A stretch of 27,780 nt of DNA, taken from positions 1 through 27,780 of the IMG/VR virus record IMGVR_UViG_3300025280_000129. One strand, 5' to 3'. The position numbers and the translations under genes were made by a program. Under the pieces are notes generated by a model. That model was not told the origin of the DNA, ran no database searches, and worked only from the letters and a program-made list of their open reading frames with translations. Position 1 is the stretch's first letter, and each line of letters begins with the position of its first letter. This stretch comes from a virus. Positions 1,010 to 6,602 of the stretch are shown here, piece after piece.

Positions 1010-1228
1010 ATGAATATATATTTTGAGAACTTTATCCAACAGGACGAGGAAGGCAACGGCATAGGACAATCAAGCTATGCTGAGTTTGCAGGAACACTAT
1101 CATGTGAGCCAGATAGTGAAATGTGGGAAGCCCTCAAGCAGTGGGCTAAGAGGCTCAACTTTACCGATGTTACATCATCTGAGGATACCCAAGAAGGAGT
1201 GAAGAATGATGCAGACCCAGAGTGCTAA
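1010..1228 (+). CDS. Small acidic hypothetical protein
   Basis: A 72-residue acidic protein with an aromatic N-terminus (YFENF) and a WEALKQWAKRL helix near residues 39-49. AAAGGAG precedes the ATG by 8 bases. Its last 23 bases overlap the start of the cytosine methyltransferase in another frame, so the methyltransferase is probably coupled to it. Acidic proteins next to modification genes are sometimes anti-restriction DNA mimics. At this length that is only a possibility. Confidence 0.66.
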   Translation: MNIYFENFIQQDEEGNGIGQSSYAEFAGTLSCEPDSEMWEALKQWAKRLNFTDVTSSEDTQEGVKNDADPEC

Positions 1229-2474
1229 ACAACCACTGACCCATATCAACCTGTTCTCAGGTTATGGCGGTTGGGATATCGCCATCCAACAATGGATCGA
1301 ACAGACGAATCAAAAGCTAGAATTAAGGACGGTGCTTTACTGTGAAATCGAATCATACTGCCAACAAGTTATTGCCCAACGGCAAAGGGATGGACTCCTC
1401 TCCCCAGAAGCGTGCATCTGGGACGATGTCAGGACTCTCAACCTTGAAGGATTTAGAGGAGCTATCGATATCCTTAGCGCATCAGCTCCATGCCAACCCT
1501 TCAGTGTCGCAGGTAAACAGCGACAAGATCAAGATGAAAGAGATATGTTCCCCGATACACTCAGGCTCATCAGTGAGTGTAGACCCCGAACTTTGGTACT
1601 TGAAAATGTCGCCGGAGTCTTATCAACTGGGTCTGGAAAACGCCGCCCCTATATCGAGCGAGTCCTCTGTCAGCTTACCGAGATCGGGTACACTGATATC
1701 CGATGGGAAATCCTATCGGCTAAGGACGTTGGAGCTCCCCATCTCAGGAAACGATGGCTCTGCATCGCCAAACTGGCCGACACCGAGGGTGAGCGATACC
1801 GAGGGGGGATTAGTACACAACGTGGAACTGAAGGACGGATCGTTCAGCAGGACGAACAAGCAAGGGGTGAGATGGGGAGTGAAACTGAGGGATGCGACAG
1901 AGAACTGGAGCACCCCAACAGAGGACGACAGCAGCAATGTGAATCCCAAGGAGAACAGAAGGATGACATTGGTCAAGCACGTAAACCAAGTGACCAAGAA
2001 CTGGCCAACCCCTCGATCCATAGATCACAAGAACCCGGATCAACCAGTGAACCGCAGGGAGAACACCCCACCGCAACACCTGTCAGCGGCAACCAAGAAC
2101 TGGCCAACACCAACCAAGAGGGATTGGAAAGGATCGGGTCCATCTGTCGAGAGGAAGGACGGCAAGAGCAGGATGAGCCACCTGGATTACAAGGCAGAGC
2201 TTTCCCATTTTGGACAAACAACAGACCCGGACTCCCTGAGTTCCCCCCATCACCAGATGACCACGAGTCATGGGAGTGGATCATCACCAACAGACCAGAC
2301 CTCGCACCTGCCGTCACAAAAGAAGTTGAATCCACTCTTTTGCGAGTACCTAATGGGACTGCCGGAAAACTGGACCAGTCTAAAACCTATAGAATACAGC
2401 GTCTAAAAATGATAGGTAATGGCGTAGTCCCTGCCACTCTGGCTCTCTTCCTTAGTAGACATATACAGGACTAG
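1206..2474 (+). CDS. dcm: DNA (cytosine-5-)-methyltransferase
   Basis: This 422-residue enzyme would transfer a methyl group from SAM to C5 of cytosine in a short target, protecting phage DNA from restriction or marking it. Family motifs appear in order: motif I LFSGYGG (residues 16-22), the acidic CEIE segment, catalytic PCQ of motif IV (Cys96), ENV of motif VI (133-135), the RxRKRW region of motif VIII (about 166-188) and GNGVVP near 404-409 for motifs IX/X. Residues about 190-340 form a long polar target-recognition region rich in Gln, Glu and Gly, with repeated LADT, LEHP, LANP and LANT elements. AAGGAG lies 6 bases before the ATG. The recognition region shares its DNA with a second long frame at 1342-2406, which may explain its odd composition. 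The enzyme class is secure; target site unknown. Confidence 0.93.
   Translation: MMQTQSAKQPLTHINLFSGYGGWDIAIQQWIEQTNQKLELRTVLYCEIESYCQQVIAQRQRDGLLSPEACIWDDVRTLNLEGFRGAIDILSASAPCQPFSVAGKQRQDQDERDMFPDTLRLISECRPRTLVLENVAGVLSTGSGKRRPYIERVLCQLTEIGYTDIRWEILSAKDVGAPHLRKRWLCIAKLADTEGERYRGGISTQRGTEGRIVQQDEQARGEMGSETEGCDRELEHPNRGRQQQCESQGEQKDDIGQARKPSDQELANPSIHRSQEPGSTSEPQGEHPTATPVSGNQELANTNQEGLERIGSICREEGRQEQDEPPGLQGRAFPFWTNNRPGLPEFPPSPDDHESWEWIITNRPDLAPAVTKEVESTLLRVPNGTAGKLDQSKTYRIQRLKMIGNGVVPATLALFLSRHIQD
1342..2406 (+). CDS. Overlapping-frame NWPTP-repeat protein nested inside the cytosine methyltransferase gene
   Basis: An open frame of 354 codons lies wholly inside the methyltransferase gene, shifted +1. 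It does not look random. A middle block (LWYLKMSPES, then LPRSGT, near residues 80-125) is followed by four NWPTP or NWSTP motifs at residues 144, 188, 220 and 253, and an ending LNPLFCEYLMGLPENWTSL. I recognise this order from phage proteins usually labelled hypothetical or, misleadingly, DNA methyltransferase. The open stretch begins after a TAA at 1324-1326. The first start is a GTG at 1342 with only a weak AAGGA far upstream; ATGs at 1390 and 1423 are alternatives. Frameshifting from the methyltransferase is another possible route. Function unknown. That the frame is under selection is likely; that it is translated here is inferred. Confidence 0.6.
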   Translation: MKSNHTANKLLPNGKGMDSSPQKRASGTMSGLSTLKDLEELSISLAHQLHANPSVSQVNSDKIKMKEICSPIHSGSSVSVDPELWYLKMSPESYQLGLENAAPISSESSVSLPRSGTLISDGKSYRLRTLELPISGNDGSASPNWPTPRVSDTEGGLVHNVELKDGSFSRTNKQGVRWGVKLRDATENWSTPTEDDSSNVNPKENRRMTLVKHVNQVTKNWPTPRSIDHKNPDQPVNRRENTPPQHLSAATKNWPTPTKRDWKGSGPSVERKDGKSRMSHLDYKAELSHFGQTTDPDSLSSPHHQMTTSHGSGSSPTDQTSHLPSQKKLNPLFCEYLMGLPENWTSLKPIEYSV

Positions 2475-2581
2475 ACAACAGTGGTACTATATATCGTGAG
2501 TCCTATCATAGACATACCTTTTGAAAGGAGAATCTACAACTGAATAGGCGATCCAAATTTTTAGAGAGAGGAATAAATCAA

Positions 2582-2806
2582 ATGGAAAAAATAAGATTGT
2601 ATTTAACTAAAGAGGGTAAGGAGAGAACGATACTAGGTTTTAGCTACGTTGATATCGTAGGCTTCGGGTATGACAGTGAGGGCAGCTTGAAAGAAGTAGT
2701 TGCTCTTGCAGACGGCAAACACCTAACCACTTATTCCGGCAGTGATTTATGGGAAGAGCTGCTCACATGGTATGAAGCACTGCCAATCGCAGAGGAGTGG
2801 AGATGA
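2582..2806 (+). CDS. Small hypothetical protein
   Basis: A 74-residue acidic protein: beta-like N-terminal half (RLYLTKEG, then ILGFSYVDIVGFGY) and an amphipathic C-terminal helix with WEELLTWYEAL. It is preceded by a 107-base gap and a weak GAGAGAGGAA ribosome binding site. Its TGA overlaps the next ATG (ATGA), implying coupled translation. No family recognised. Confidence 0.7.
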   Translation: MEKIRLYLTKEGKERTILGFSYVDIVGFGYDSEGSLKEVVALADGKHLTTYSGSDLWEELLTWYEALPIAEEWR

Positions 2807-3024
2807 GTAAGATGTCAAACCACATAGTAAGGCAGCGAGAGATGGATAACCGCCACATAGATTATGATGAGTGGGGATACTTTGAAGACCCTGACAGTGG
2901 AGTAGGTATTGTTATCAACCACTTCAGAGATGAGGGTGATCCCATGCTGAATGTGTATGTAGTACCCAAGGACAAAGTAGCCAACAATGATTGGCATAAT
3001 GACATGATAGATATAACAGGGTGA
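2803..3024 (+). CDS. Small acidic hypothetical protein
   Basis: A 73-residue protein rich in Asp and His with a central YFEDPDSGVGIVINHF stretch and a strand LNVYVVPKD. The ATG at 2803 is chosen over an in-frame GTG at 2797 because it overlaps the previous stop as ATGA and has AGGAG 5 bases upstream. No zinc motif, membrane segment or family signature is visible. Its stop sits just before the ribosome binding site of the next gene. Confidence 0.68.
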   Translation: MSKMSNHIVRQREMDNRHIDYDEWGYFEDPDSGVGIVINHFRDEGDPMLNVYVVPKDKVANNDWHNDMIDITG

Positions 3025-3038
3025 GAAAGGAGAAGGGT

Positions 3039-3305
3039 ATGGAGAAGATTACCAGGCTGAACGTGGGTAAATCCAGACCACTGGAAGTGTTATCCGGATG
3101 GCAGGTACAGGCGTACATCGAGGAGAAAACAGGGCGAGCTGTCAGTGATCAGTACGTCACTAAGCTCCGCAGGGACGGCAGCCTGCAATATGCAGGGCTG
3201 TTGGCAGGAACTTACATCTACACAAGAGATCAGGTAGATGAGGCCATCAAGAAGGCAGAAGAAATAGAACGCATGAGAAATCAATTTGTAGAGAGGATAA
3301 ATTAA
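3039..3305 (+). CDS. Excisionase/MerR-like helix-turn-helix DNA-binding protein
   Basis: An 88-residue protein. Residues about 17-70 fit the small winged-helix fold of excisionases and HTH_17 proteins: a first helix (WQVQAYIEEKTG), a turn with a recognition helix (SDQYVTKLRRDG), a wing (AGLLAGTYIYTR) and a closing helix (DQVDEAIKKAEEI). It probably binds DNA as a small regulator or architectural protein. The ATG at 3039 is preferred over a GTG at 3021 because AAGGAG lies 6 bases before it and conserved-looking sequence begins there. The stop overlaps the next start as TAATG. Two further proteins of this fold end the arm. Confidence 0.65.
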   Translation: MEKITRLNVGKSRPLEVLSGWQVQAYIEEKTGRAVSDQYVTKLRRDGSLQYAGLLAGTYIYTRDQVDEAIKKAEEIERMRNQFVERIN

Positions 3306-3997
3306 TGCAAGACAATATGAAGAAAACAGAAACGGTAAACGCAGTAATCACAGGATCATATCCTGCGACAAAGAACCAAGACACTGGGGCATGGCGGCCT
3401 GCCAGAATCACCGTGACCAACGAGGCAGGGGAACACACGCTAAAGGTATGGGCACTCAGGGACTTTGATACCAACGTGGTTATTGAGCCGGTAAAGATGC
3501 CAGACTTCTATACCGCCCTCGGAGATATAGAGCAGCTAATAGGAAAACGCATACAGTTCTCAGCCATAGCAGGTACAGACCGAGAGGGGAATTTTGAGTG
3601 GGCTAAGATAAAGGATATCCGTATCACCGGTGACCAATCAGGTTCTGGTAGTGGGGTTAGTGCCGATATCACCAACCCCACAAGGTCCCACCCCAAAAAT
3701 ACACCAATGCCACAGCCAGTGCAAGCAAATGTATCAGGTATCGATGCAGATTCCTATGTCCCAATGAACAGACAGGAAGTAGGGATGAGCATTGGCAACG
3801 CCAGAACCAACGGAGCTATGCTTGTTGCAGCTTATGTCCGTGCTACTAACGGAAAGATCCCAACAAGGCAGTGGCTTACCGATGCTGCAAAGGCCACACT
3901 CCACTACCAAGAGTCACTCCTAGGCCAGAGGGGCAATGAAGAGCCTGAGACAGCCCCCGAAGGCGATGATTTCGAGCAGCTTGGTGTCTTGGAGTGA
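3305..3997 (+). CDS. Putative OB-fold single-stranded DNA-binding protein
   Basis: A 230-residue protein in three parts. Residues about 8-110 are beta-rich with TGAWRPARITVTN, EHTLKVWAL and a late GNFEWAKIKDI strand, consistent with an OB fold. Residues about 112-150 are a Gly/Ser/Pro/Gln-rich linker. A helical segment follows (SIGNARTNGAMLVAAYVRA, about 160-180) and a strongly acidic end (EGDDFEQLG). Fold, linker and acidic tip resemble phage SSB-like proteins that coat single strands and recruit partners by the tail. Position just before nuclease, helicase and resolvase genes supports a replication or recombination role. The tail is not the classical DDIPF type, so this is a structural guess. 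The start overlaps the previous stop (TAATG). Confidence 0.5.
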   Translation: MQDNMKKTETVNAVITGSYPATKNQDTGAWRPARITVTNEAGEHTLKVWALRDFDTNVVIEPVKMPDFYTALGDIEQLIGKRIQFSAIAGTDREGNFEWAKIKDIRITGDQSGSGSGVSADITNPTRSHPKNTPMPQPVQANVSGIDADSYVPMNRQEVGMSIGNARTNGAMLVAAYVRATNGKIPTRQWLTDAAKATLHYQESLLGQRGNEEPETAPEGDDFEQLGVLE

Positions 3998-4296: not shown

Positions 4297-4631
4297 AATA
4301 CTACAAGGCAATCATACTACCAATGGGGCAACGCATCGTGTCAGTCATTGACACCAAACATAATCAGAGCTACGCCCTACCTAACTGGGAGAATGGAGAC
4401 GCAGATTTTAACTGGGGCTACTCCGGCACTGGAGTCAGCAACCTTGCTAAGTCCATGCTTCTGGATTTATATCCGGACATTGATTTTCTAGATCCTGATG
4501 ACACAAGGGTATTCTTTTTGAAGGACAATTTATTATCGGCCATCAGCCAGAACAAGGGATGGACTTTCTCCGCAGAGGAAATAGAGGGAGCAGCACAACC
4601 TAATGACCAGGAGCCACGCTATGACAACTAA
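4293..4631 (+). CDS. DUF6166-like protein of unknown function
   Basis: A 112-residue protein. The central FNWGYSGTGVSNLAKSML (residues about 49-66) matches what I recall as the signature of DUF6166: a Gly-rich turn after FxWGY, then a LAxAIL-type helix. The N-terminal strand IILPMGQRIVSV and a later TRVFFLK strand complete a small alpha/beta domain. The family is found in phages and mobile elements and has no established function that I know. The start overlaps the previous stop (ATGA); the last 11 bases overlap the nuclease gene. Confidence 0.58.
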   Translation: MKYYKAIILPMGQRIVSVIDTKHNQSYALPNWENGDADFNWGYSGTGVSNLAKSMLLDLYPDIDFLDPDDTRVFFLKDNLLSAISQNKGWTFSAEEIEGAAQPNDQEPRYDN

Positions 4632-5400
4632 ACAAGCTGACCACCAAGACCATCCATTGGACAATGGAAGCACTATGAGGATTTACCGGAATGGGAATCA
4701 CCAATACTGGACTGACGATGACCCGATCAAACGCCCAAGCGTTACCTCTCTTATTGCATATGTTGATGGTGGTGCATTCGGGGCGGGAAAAGGCTGGGCC
4801 GTCAGAGAAATACGGAAAGATTATCTGGAGCAGGGAGCAGGTGGAAGGCCAAACTTTGATATCCCTGACATACTTACCAACAAGGCAAGGGATGAAGGCA
4901 ACAAGCTGCATAGCGACATAGATAAATATATAAAGACAAGCGGTGGTTACATAGCTGAGGAGAACCCTGCCTTCCTTGCGTGGCATAGGGCTATGGCTAA
5001 CCACCTCTATCTCGATAGTGAAGTCTTCACGTATCACCCGGCTCTGAATTACGGTGGCACAATAGACCAGATAGCCTTGATCGGGGATGACATAGTAATC
5101 CAGGATGTAAAGAGCGTTGACCCTGAGAGCTGGGCTAAACATGGCAGCAAATATAGATGGGCAAAGGACCAGACACAAACAACTGCCTATATCTTGGCAC
5201 TGAGACAATCGGGAAGCCGCTACAAAGCAGTCAAGGGGGAAATAGTTTATGTCCTACGTGATGGATCAGGAGTATTCACAGAAGAAGTACACATCACCAC
5301 TGGGATGGCATTGTTTAGCAATAGCAGGCAGATATACGACACGCTGAAACTTGAAAATAAAGAGAGAAGTAATAATTTGAAAGAGGAGATAGGAAAATGA
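4621..5400 (+). CDS. PD-(D/E)XK nuclease, Cas4/RecB-like phage exonuclease
   Basis: A 259-residue nuclease of the RecB/Cas4-like PD-(D/E)XK group. Visible active-site elements: His97 in GNKLHSDID, Glu134 in LDSEVF, Asp149 in GGTIDQIA, the DVK triad at 162-164, and a QTTAY motif at 186-190, the position of motif QxxxY. Such enzymes degrade or trim DNA ends with Mg2+ during phage recombination or packaging. The ATG at 4621 is chosen over 4603 because AGGAG lies 7 bases before it. Its TGA overlaps the next ATG. Lying between an SSB-like gene and a helicase, it probably works in the same recombination or replication pathway. No iron-sulphur cysteines are seen, unlike true Cas4. Confidence 0.82.
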   Translation: MTTKQADHQDHPLDNGSTMRIYRNGNHQYWTDDDPIKRPSVTSLIAYVDGGAFGAGKGWAVREIRKDYLEQGAGGRPNFDIPDILTNKARDEGNKLHSDIDKYIKTSGGYIAEENPAFLAWHRAMANHLYLDSEVFTYHPALNYGGTIDQIALIGDDIVIQDVKSVDPESWAKHGSKYRWAKDQTQTTAYILALRQSGSRYKAVKGEIVYVLRDGSGVFTEEVHITTGMALFSNSRQIYDTLKLENKERSNNLKEEIGK

Positions 5401-6602
5401 CAATGGAAAAAATTACAACCATAAATGGAAAAGAATGTAGACTTACGTTTCGATTTGAAACAATAGACAAAGAAAGGGCATTGGAACTACTGGCCGCAAC
5501 CATTGGCAACAGGGGTACTGGATTAACTCAAGTTGCCAGATATGTACGGGCCATGACAACCGGTCAATGGATACTGGAATGTAGTCCGATCAGGATATCG
5601 GATACAGGAAAACTTATAGACGGTCATCACAGGCTTGAAGGAGTAATAGCCTCAGGCGTAGCACAGGAATTTCTGGTGATGTATGGTTTGCCAGAGGAAG
5701 TATTCATTGCTTTGGATCAAAACAAAACTCGTTCGACAAAAGACACATTTGCCGTAGCCGGAGAAACAAATGCCAGTTACTTAGGGGCTGCCATTAAGCA
5801 CCTGTGGCGGTTCATTAACAGCGTTGAACATAGATCAGCCTGTTCCAACGTAGAAGCTGCCGTACTGTTGGATAAGCACCCGAATATAAGGGACTCCCTT
5901 CTTGTTGCCACTGAATTAGGTAATCAAATACACTCTCCCATAGGCGTTATGACTGCTGTTCACTATGTGATTACATCTAGCGATGCCAAGAAATCCAATG
6001 ACTTTTTTAACGGACTTCTTTACGGTATAGGTGATATATTTACTAACCCTACGGACCCAAGAACCAAGCTGAGAGCCAAAATATTACGGGAACACAAACC
6101 AATGATGACCATATCTGAAGGCAGGAGAGTAGGGGGAATTACATGGAAGGAACTGAAGGTAGCATTTTGGGTAATGGAATCGTGGCTGTACTTCATTGAT
6201 GGTACCCCGTTACTCTATTGGAGCAAAGAGTTAATGGAACGGAACGTGCTGAATACTCTTTACTCAATGGCACAGGACGTTCATGCACAGGCACAGAATC
6301 CAGACAACCCAAGAATAGATATAGATAACCCACGGAATACAGCAGCAGATTCCATTGTCAGGCTAATGGAACACAGGGCAACTTGGACTGGGAAAACAGG
6401 AGATCTTTTGTCTATCCTTTCATCGGACTATGGATTAAAAGGAATGACTGTACAGAAATTTGGATACCACCTGACGAAACCCAGCACCGCCAAGATTATG
6501 AAAAACCACGGTATAGAAAGAACGAAATACACCTACAAAGGAAATCGTGTGACCCAGTTAATAAAACCATCTGCGATGGCTCCATTTAAGAGGGCGAGGT
6601 AA
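5397..6602 (+). CDS. ParB-like (DGQHR-type) phage protein
   Basis: A 401-residue protein. Residues about 30-115 carry the ParB/sulfiredoxin-like signature: RYVRAMTTGQW, a strand SPIRIS, LIDGHHRLEGVIASG with DGHHR at 75-79, then VMYGLPEEVFIALDQNKTRS. The rest (about 120-400) is a large helical part with no motif I know. In phages such proteins are usually annotated ParB-like nuclease domain proteins; the DGxHR core binds nucleotide in some members and cleaves DNA in others. The second residue of the usual DGQHR is His here. The ATG overlaps the nuclease stop, and the stop overlaps the next gene (TAATG). Activity is not provable from sequence. Confidence 0.72.
   Translation: MTMEKITTINGKECRLTFRFETIDKERALELLAATIGNRGTGLTQVARYVRAMTTGQWILECSPIRISDTGKLIDGHHRLEGVIASGVAQEFLVMYGLPEEVFIALDQNKTRSTKDTFAVAGETNASYLGAAIKHLWRFINSVEHRSACSNVEAAVLLDKHPNIRDSLLVATELGNQIHSPIGVMTAVHYVITSSDAKKSNDFFNGLLYGIGDIFTNPTDPRTKLRAKILREHKPMMTISEGRRVGGITWKELKVAFWVMESWLYFIDGTPLLYWSKELMERNVLNTLYSMAQDVHAQAQNPDNPRIDIDNPRNTAADSIVRLMEHRATWTGKTGDLLSILSSDYGLKGMTVQKFGYHLTKPSTAKIMKNHGIERTKYTYKGNRVTQLIKPSAMAPFKRAR

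Follow-up and report, generated by a model that had tools for sequence, protein, structure and literature searches.

A viral C5-cytosine methyltransferase gene that probably encodes a second enzyme subunit in its +1 reading frame

Does more than 1 kb of a viral cytosine methyltransferase gene encode a second protein in its +1 frame, and what would that protein do? The question arises in a stretch of 27,780 bases from a viral source record (the window), where the original prediction placed a 354-codon open frame inside a 422-codon methyltransferase gene. We recovered both frames at the same positions and lengths, together with every motif attributed to them, namely, PCQ, ENV, and GNG in the methyltransferase frame (here called alpha) and LWYLK, LPRSGT, four NWPTP-type repeats, and LNPxFxExLMGxP in the +1 frame (beta). 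The locus is laid out as follows.

1194..1199, + strand: putative ribosome-binding site of alpha, AAGGAG, 6 nt 5' of the alpha ATG (sequence reading)
1206..2474, + strand: alpha gene, C5-cytosine methyltransferase, 422 aa, ATG start; catalytic large domain and motif X; PF00145 and M.HhaI matches
1254..1271, + strand: alpha motif I, FSGYGG (motif reading)
1342..2406, + strand: beta gene, +1 frame, 354 aa from a putative GTG start at 1342; frame open from 1327
1488..1496, + strand: alpha motif IV, PCQ, with the catalytic cysteine (motif reading)
1591, + strand: beta LWYLK (motif reading)
1602..1610, + strand: alpha motif VI, ENV (motif reading)
1675, + strand: beta LPRSGT (motif reading)
1740..1754, + strand: alpha motif VIII, HLRKR; the codon-position pattern of relatives inverts past here
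1771..1902, + strand: beta NWPTP cassette 1, 44 residues
1803..2222, + strand: alpha residues 200-339, predicted mostly disordered bridge (AlphaFold2 pLDDT mostly <50), opposite the beta cassettes
1903..1998, + strand: beta NWSTP cassette 2, 32 residues
1999..2097, + strand: beta NWPTP cassette 3, 33 residues
2098..2325, + strand: beta NWPTP unit 4 and linker, extending to the motif-IX-like element
2326..2364, + strand: beta motif-IX-like element LNPLFCEYLMGLP, of LNPxFxExLMGxP type
2415..2432, + strand: alpha motif X, GNGVVP, just 3' of the beta stop

Searching each frame separately against protein families, as had been proposed, identified alpha as a C5-methyltransferase (PF00145, E 1.1e-33). 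A profile of alpha and its relatives aligned with the large domain of M.HhaI across motifs I to VIII (E about 2e-42), and motifs I, IV (PCQ), VI (ENV), VIII, and X are all present in order. The LQGFP-type motif IX is absent from the window's alpha, which sets it apart from single-chain C5-methyltransferases. An IMG/VR scan with the window's alpha as a single protein found no relative. In the AlphaFold2 model of alpha, which matches M.HhaI by Foldseek, the catalytic core and the motif X helix are confident, while residues of about 200 to 340, opposite beta's cassettes, are mostly disordered in the prediction. In the two-polypeptide reading proposed below, the segment between motifs VIII and X would serve mainly as an open bridge by which motif X is reached.

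Beta matched two phage protein families, PHROG 1008 (E 1.5e-23) and PHROG 27243 (E 8e-14), and no Pfam or NCBIfam model. It contains four NW(P/S)TP units, beginning at 1771, 1903, 1999, and 2098. Its structure model has a mean pLDDT of 60, locally better at residues of about 150 to 290 and 330 to 345, and a Foldseek search with this low-confidence model returned no match in the PDB and nothing significant in BFVD.

The open beta frame is far longer than the alpha protein sequence would be expected to produce. When alpha was shuffled among synonymous codons, 2 of 20,000 shuffles had 359 or more codons open in the +1 frame, against a mean of 144, and in the control gene, E. coli dcm, the longest +1 frame is 88 codons of 473. 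Across relatives, the beta profile score exceeded that of all 30 synonymous alpha shuffles in 168 of 169 loci.

We assembled relatives in three sets, fetching loci from IMG/VR with the alpha protein of phage K1G, from IMG/VR with the beta motif, and from bacterial genomes with the beta pattern. Beta occupies alpha's +1 frame in 80/80 loci of the first set, in 78/80 of the second (it is in another frame in L028 and in-frame in L031), and in 80/80 of the bacterial set. The alpha-fetched set was not chosen for beta, so its 80/80 does not follow from the search. In all, beta overlaps a C5-methyltransferase gene in each of the 240 fetched loci, 238 of them with the +1 arrangement, and no beta was found away from a methyltransferase among them. 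The absence of free-standing NWPTP proteins, which the original prediction had listed as counting against a second product, is thus true as a fact of these loci, but it fits an obligate second subunit.

Several of these loci have features of their own. One viral contig (L165) carries tandem alpha/beta pairs at 2483-3551 and 4578-5604. In three others, one stop codon within the overlap breaks the alpha frame (L202:4507-4509, TAG; L219:1937-1939, TAA; L228:4468-4470, TGA); past the stop, alpha continues in the same frame with motif X, and beta is open. Either decay of alpha or its production in two pieces may account for this. In an uncultured phage (KT997847, locus L002), the start of alpha lies in a frame other than that of the rest of alpha, which suggests a frameshift or an assembly error, and beta is annotated in place of the remaining alpha.

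We found that purifying selection acts on both frames in close pairs of relatives. In a simplified OLGenie-type count over 58 independent close pairs, dN/dS before motif VIII was 0.07 to 0.15 for alpha and 0.25 to 0.55 for beta, while after motif VIII it was 0.16 to 0.42 for alpha and 0.10 to 0.28 for beta; treating the +2 frame as coding, as a control, gave 0.73 to 3.1, so that although these values are approximate (isolated differences only were counted and transition bias was ignored), the contrast with the controls is large. The predicted double constraint on the recognition region is therefore borne out by dN/dS values below 1 in both frames, and overprinting, the central proposal, is upheld by the shuffles, the conserved +1 nesting, and selection on both frames together.

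The codon positions at which relatives differ also depend on the side of motif VIII. Dividing position 3 changes in alpha by position 1 changes gave, over 90 pairs, 1.05 to 3.6 before motif VIII and 0.19 to 0.94 across roughly 135 codons after it. Outside the beta frame, the pattern is normal, with values of 0.365 versus 0.163 upstream and 0.437 versus 0.131 downstream, and ordinary methyltransferases (31 pairs) show ratios of 2.4 before and 3.0 after motif VIII, with no inversion. This inversion indicates that the DNA past motif VIII evolves chiefly as beta. When the window was compared with its relatives, the better-matching frame past motif VIII was beta in 244 of 249 loci; before motif VIII, it was beta in none.

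The distribution of motifs IX and X connects the two frames. LNPxFxExLMGxP is present in the beta frame of most loci, and the LQGFP-type motif IX is missing from the alpha relatives, one bacterial locus excepted. In a survey of viral genes sampled twice, by PCQPF and by PCQAF DNA patterns, a motif IX was seen in beta in 83 loci, in alpha in 80, and in both in 0, with neither found by these patterns in 58; among the 163 loci where it was seen, it was in one frame or the other, never both. By sample, the ratio of beta to alpha was 76:5 in PCQPF genes and 7:75 in PCQAF genes. An earlier count by beta profile, 108 of 120 PCQPF loci, was set aside for this stricter motif test because the N-terminal part of the profile also picks up conserved alpha motifs as read in +1, so that single-chain genes too were called as having beta. 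Direct resemblance of the LMG element to classical motif IX is weak. In a profile-profile comparison, the LMG element of beta aligned with classical motif IX at a local probability of 80.6%, a value that is only supportive because the windows were cut around the motif beforehand; a motif IX profile run against single sequences gave no significant score.

Five loci with split or fused forms (L003, L011, L012, L224, and L240) have motif X behind the LMG element, both in one frame. In two of these (L224:3902-5068 and L240:3983-5497), alpha stops after motif VIII and it is beta's frame that contains motif X, which fits the reading of the stretch between motifs VIII and X of alpha as a bridge to motif X. 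In Mycobacterium phage Babsiella (L012:1989-3833), the first LPTP repeats are read in +1; those that come later are in the methyltransferase frame, fused with the LMG element and motif X, a layout that looks like the outcome of a one-base frame change.

Considering these data together, we propose, with a probability of about 0.78, that the locus encodes an overprinted two-polypeptide C5-cytosine DNA methyltransferase with a catalytic half, alpha, and a recognition half, beta. In this proposal, which is drawn from sequence comparisons and structure prediction, alpha (frame 0) would supply the catalytic large domain, comprising motifs I to VIII, the disordered bridge, and motif X, and the nested beta (+1) would supply the DNA-recognition half, with tandem NWPTP cassettes followed by the motif-IX-like element. 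Beta would be translated separately by internal initiation, the two chains would assemble as a single active enzyme, the cassettes of beta would recognise the target DNA, and the enzyme would probably protect phage DNA from restriction.

The main alternative is a +1 ribosomal frameshift near motif VIII, yielding a fusion of the N-terminal half of alpha with the C-terminal half of beta beside full-length alpha. Such a product would require alpha to dominate before motif VIII and beta after it, as is seen; both halves are fused in-frame in Babsiella, and the candidate beta starts in the window have only weak ribosome-binding candidates, with no strong site among them. We nevertheless consider it unlikely, since constraint on the beta frame extends upstream of motif VIII (the dN/dS of 0.25 to 0.55 given above), position-3 change is already reduced 15 to 45 codons before that motif, and the fused product in the window would be without motif X. 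In addition, the start codons of alpha and beta are only a few bases apart in many relatives, though not in the window, and M.EcoHK31I is described as two polypeptides (PMC3404938).

Two other explanations give beta no part in the methyltransferase. Beta could be a separate phage protein with its own role, such as counter-defence, that merely shares methyltransferase DNA; this would suit a distinct conserved family that lacks a Pfam or NCBIfam model, but it is made improbable by the constant company of a methyltransferase in 240 loci, by the motif-IX-like element in beta, which exactly complements the motif IX missing from alpha, and by loci in which beta carries motif X or is fused to it. On the same grounds of universal overlap and a motif-IX-like element that alpha lacks, the original prediction that the NWPTP protein is a separate product mislabelled as a methyltransferase is not supported, and "methyltransferase" is probably the right family for beta. 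Least credible of all is that alpha is the sole gene and the +1 frame a by-product of its sequence and composition. One and the same DNA reads as LADT/LANP-type repeats in alpha and as W-P-T-P in beta, so some of the motif pattern is shared by necessity, yet alpha shuffled among synonymous codons loses the open frame along with most of its score against the beta profile, and the inverted codon positions and long +1 frame are not found in ordinary methyltransferases; the shuffles, dN/dS values, and codon-position inversion all contradict it.

Under the two-polypeptide reading, we infer that the NWPTP units of beta read DNA. Relatives differ by whole units: two 28-residue units in L047 are missing from its close relative L052, and a 35-residue unit in L094 is missing from K1G, differences that we took from protein splits, as nucleotide-level indel counts there are too noisy. 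A more tentative extension, which we think possible though somewhat doubtful, is that the units are exchangeable target-recognition cassettes, gained and lost whole in beta while the alpha frame stays open, so that specificity would evolve by cassette shuffling in overprinted DNA, and that the split enzyme accounts for a major, so far unrecognised, class of viral C5-methyltransferases. The sequence TGGCCR in three of the NWPTP units (window positions 1774-1779, 2002-2007, and 2101-2106) fits YGGCCR, the target of M.EcoHK31I, a match that may be coincidence because coding for W-P forces TGGCCN.

The arrangement is found in hundreds of phage and bacterial sequences, with the second protein usually missed or misnamed, and many phage "DNA cytosine methyltransferase" annotations seem to cover just one half of an enzyme, with the other half hidden in the second frame (76 versus 5 in the sampled PCQPF genes). 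This affects annotation, cloning, and specificity prediction, and synonymous recoding of alpha would destroy beta. It is also a large, testable example of a stretch of DNA shared by both subunits of an enzyme. The two-polypeptide kind of enzyme is known since 1995. The prevalence of the overprinted form in phages and the dominance of the second frame in the recognition region appear to be undocumented in the searchable literature, where we found no description of overprinted phage methyltransferases; as that literature was covered only in part, this is weak evidence of novelty and we state it with caution.

The window's alpha shares its large domain and motifs I, IV, VI, VIII, and X with the single-chain enzymes M.HhaI and E. 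coli Dcm; enzymes of that type differ in having motif IX in the same frame and no conserved +1 frame. M.AquI is a C5-methyltransferase split naturally after motif VIII into alpha and beta chains (PMC3404938), with motif X beside motif IX in the small subunit, whereas in the window motif X is in alpha, so the pair is not of the M.AquI type; in the placement of motif X, M.AquI is more closely resembled by L224, L240, and two actinophage loci, L003 and L011. The same +1 nesting and motif order as in the window are seen in Escherichia phage K1G (ORF31/ORF30) and Paenibacillus phage Arcticfreeze (gp56/gp57), where both frames are annotated, as two methyltransferases or an "Mte8-like" protein with no two-subunit enzyme stated, and there are fewer NWPTP-type units. 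The genes of M.EcoHK31I overlap, with the small one lying inside the large one in a different reading frame, and the window's small gene is placed in the same way. M.EcoHK31I (Lee, Kam and Shaw 1995, as described in PMC3404938) is a two-polypeptide C5-methyltransferase of an E. coli restriction-modification system with motifs I to VIII and X in the large polypeptide and IX only in the small one, and the window's alpha similarly has motifs I, IV, VI, VIII, and X without IX, a likeness drawn from the published description and the window's gene layout. The window pair differs in being viral and in having four tandem NWPTP-type units, and while the predicted recognition domain of M.EcoHK31I was assigned to the large subunit (PMC3404938), the selection pattern here points to beta.
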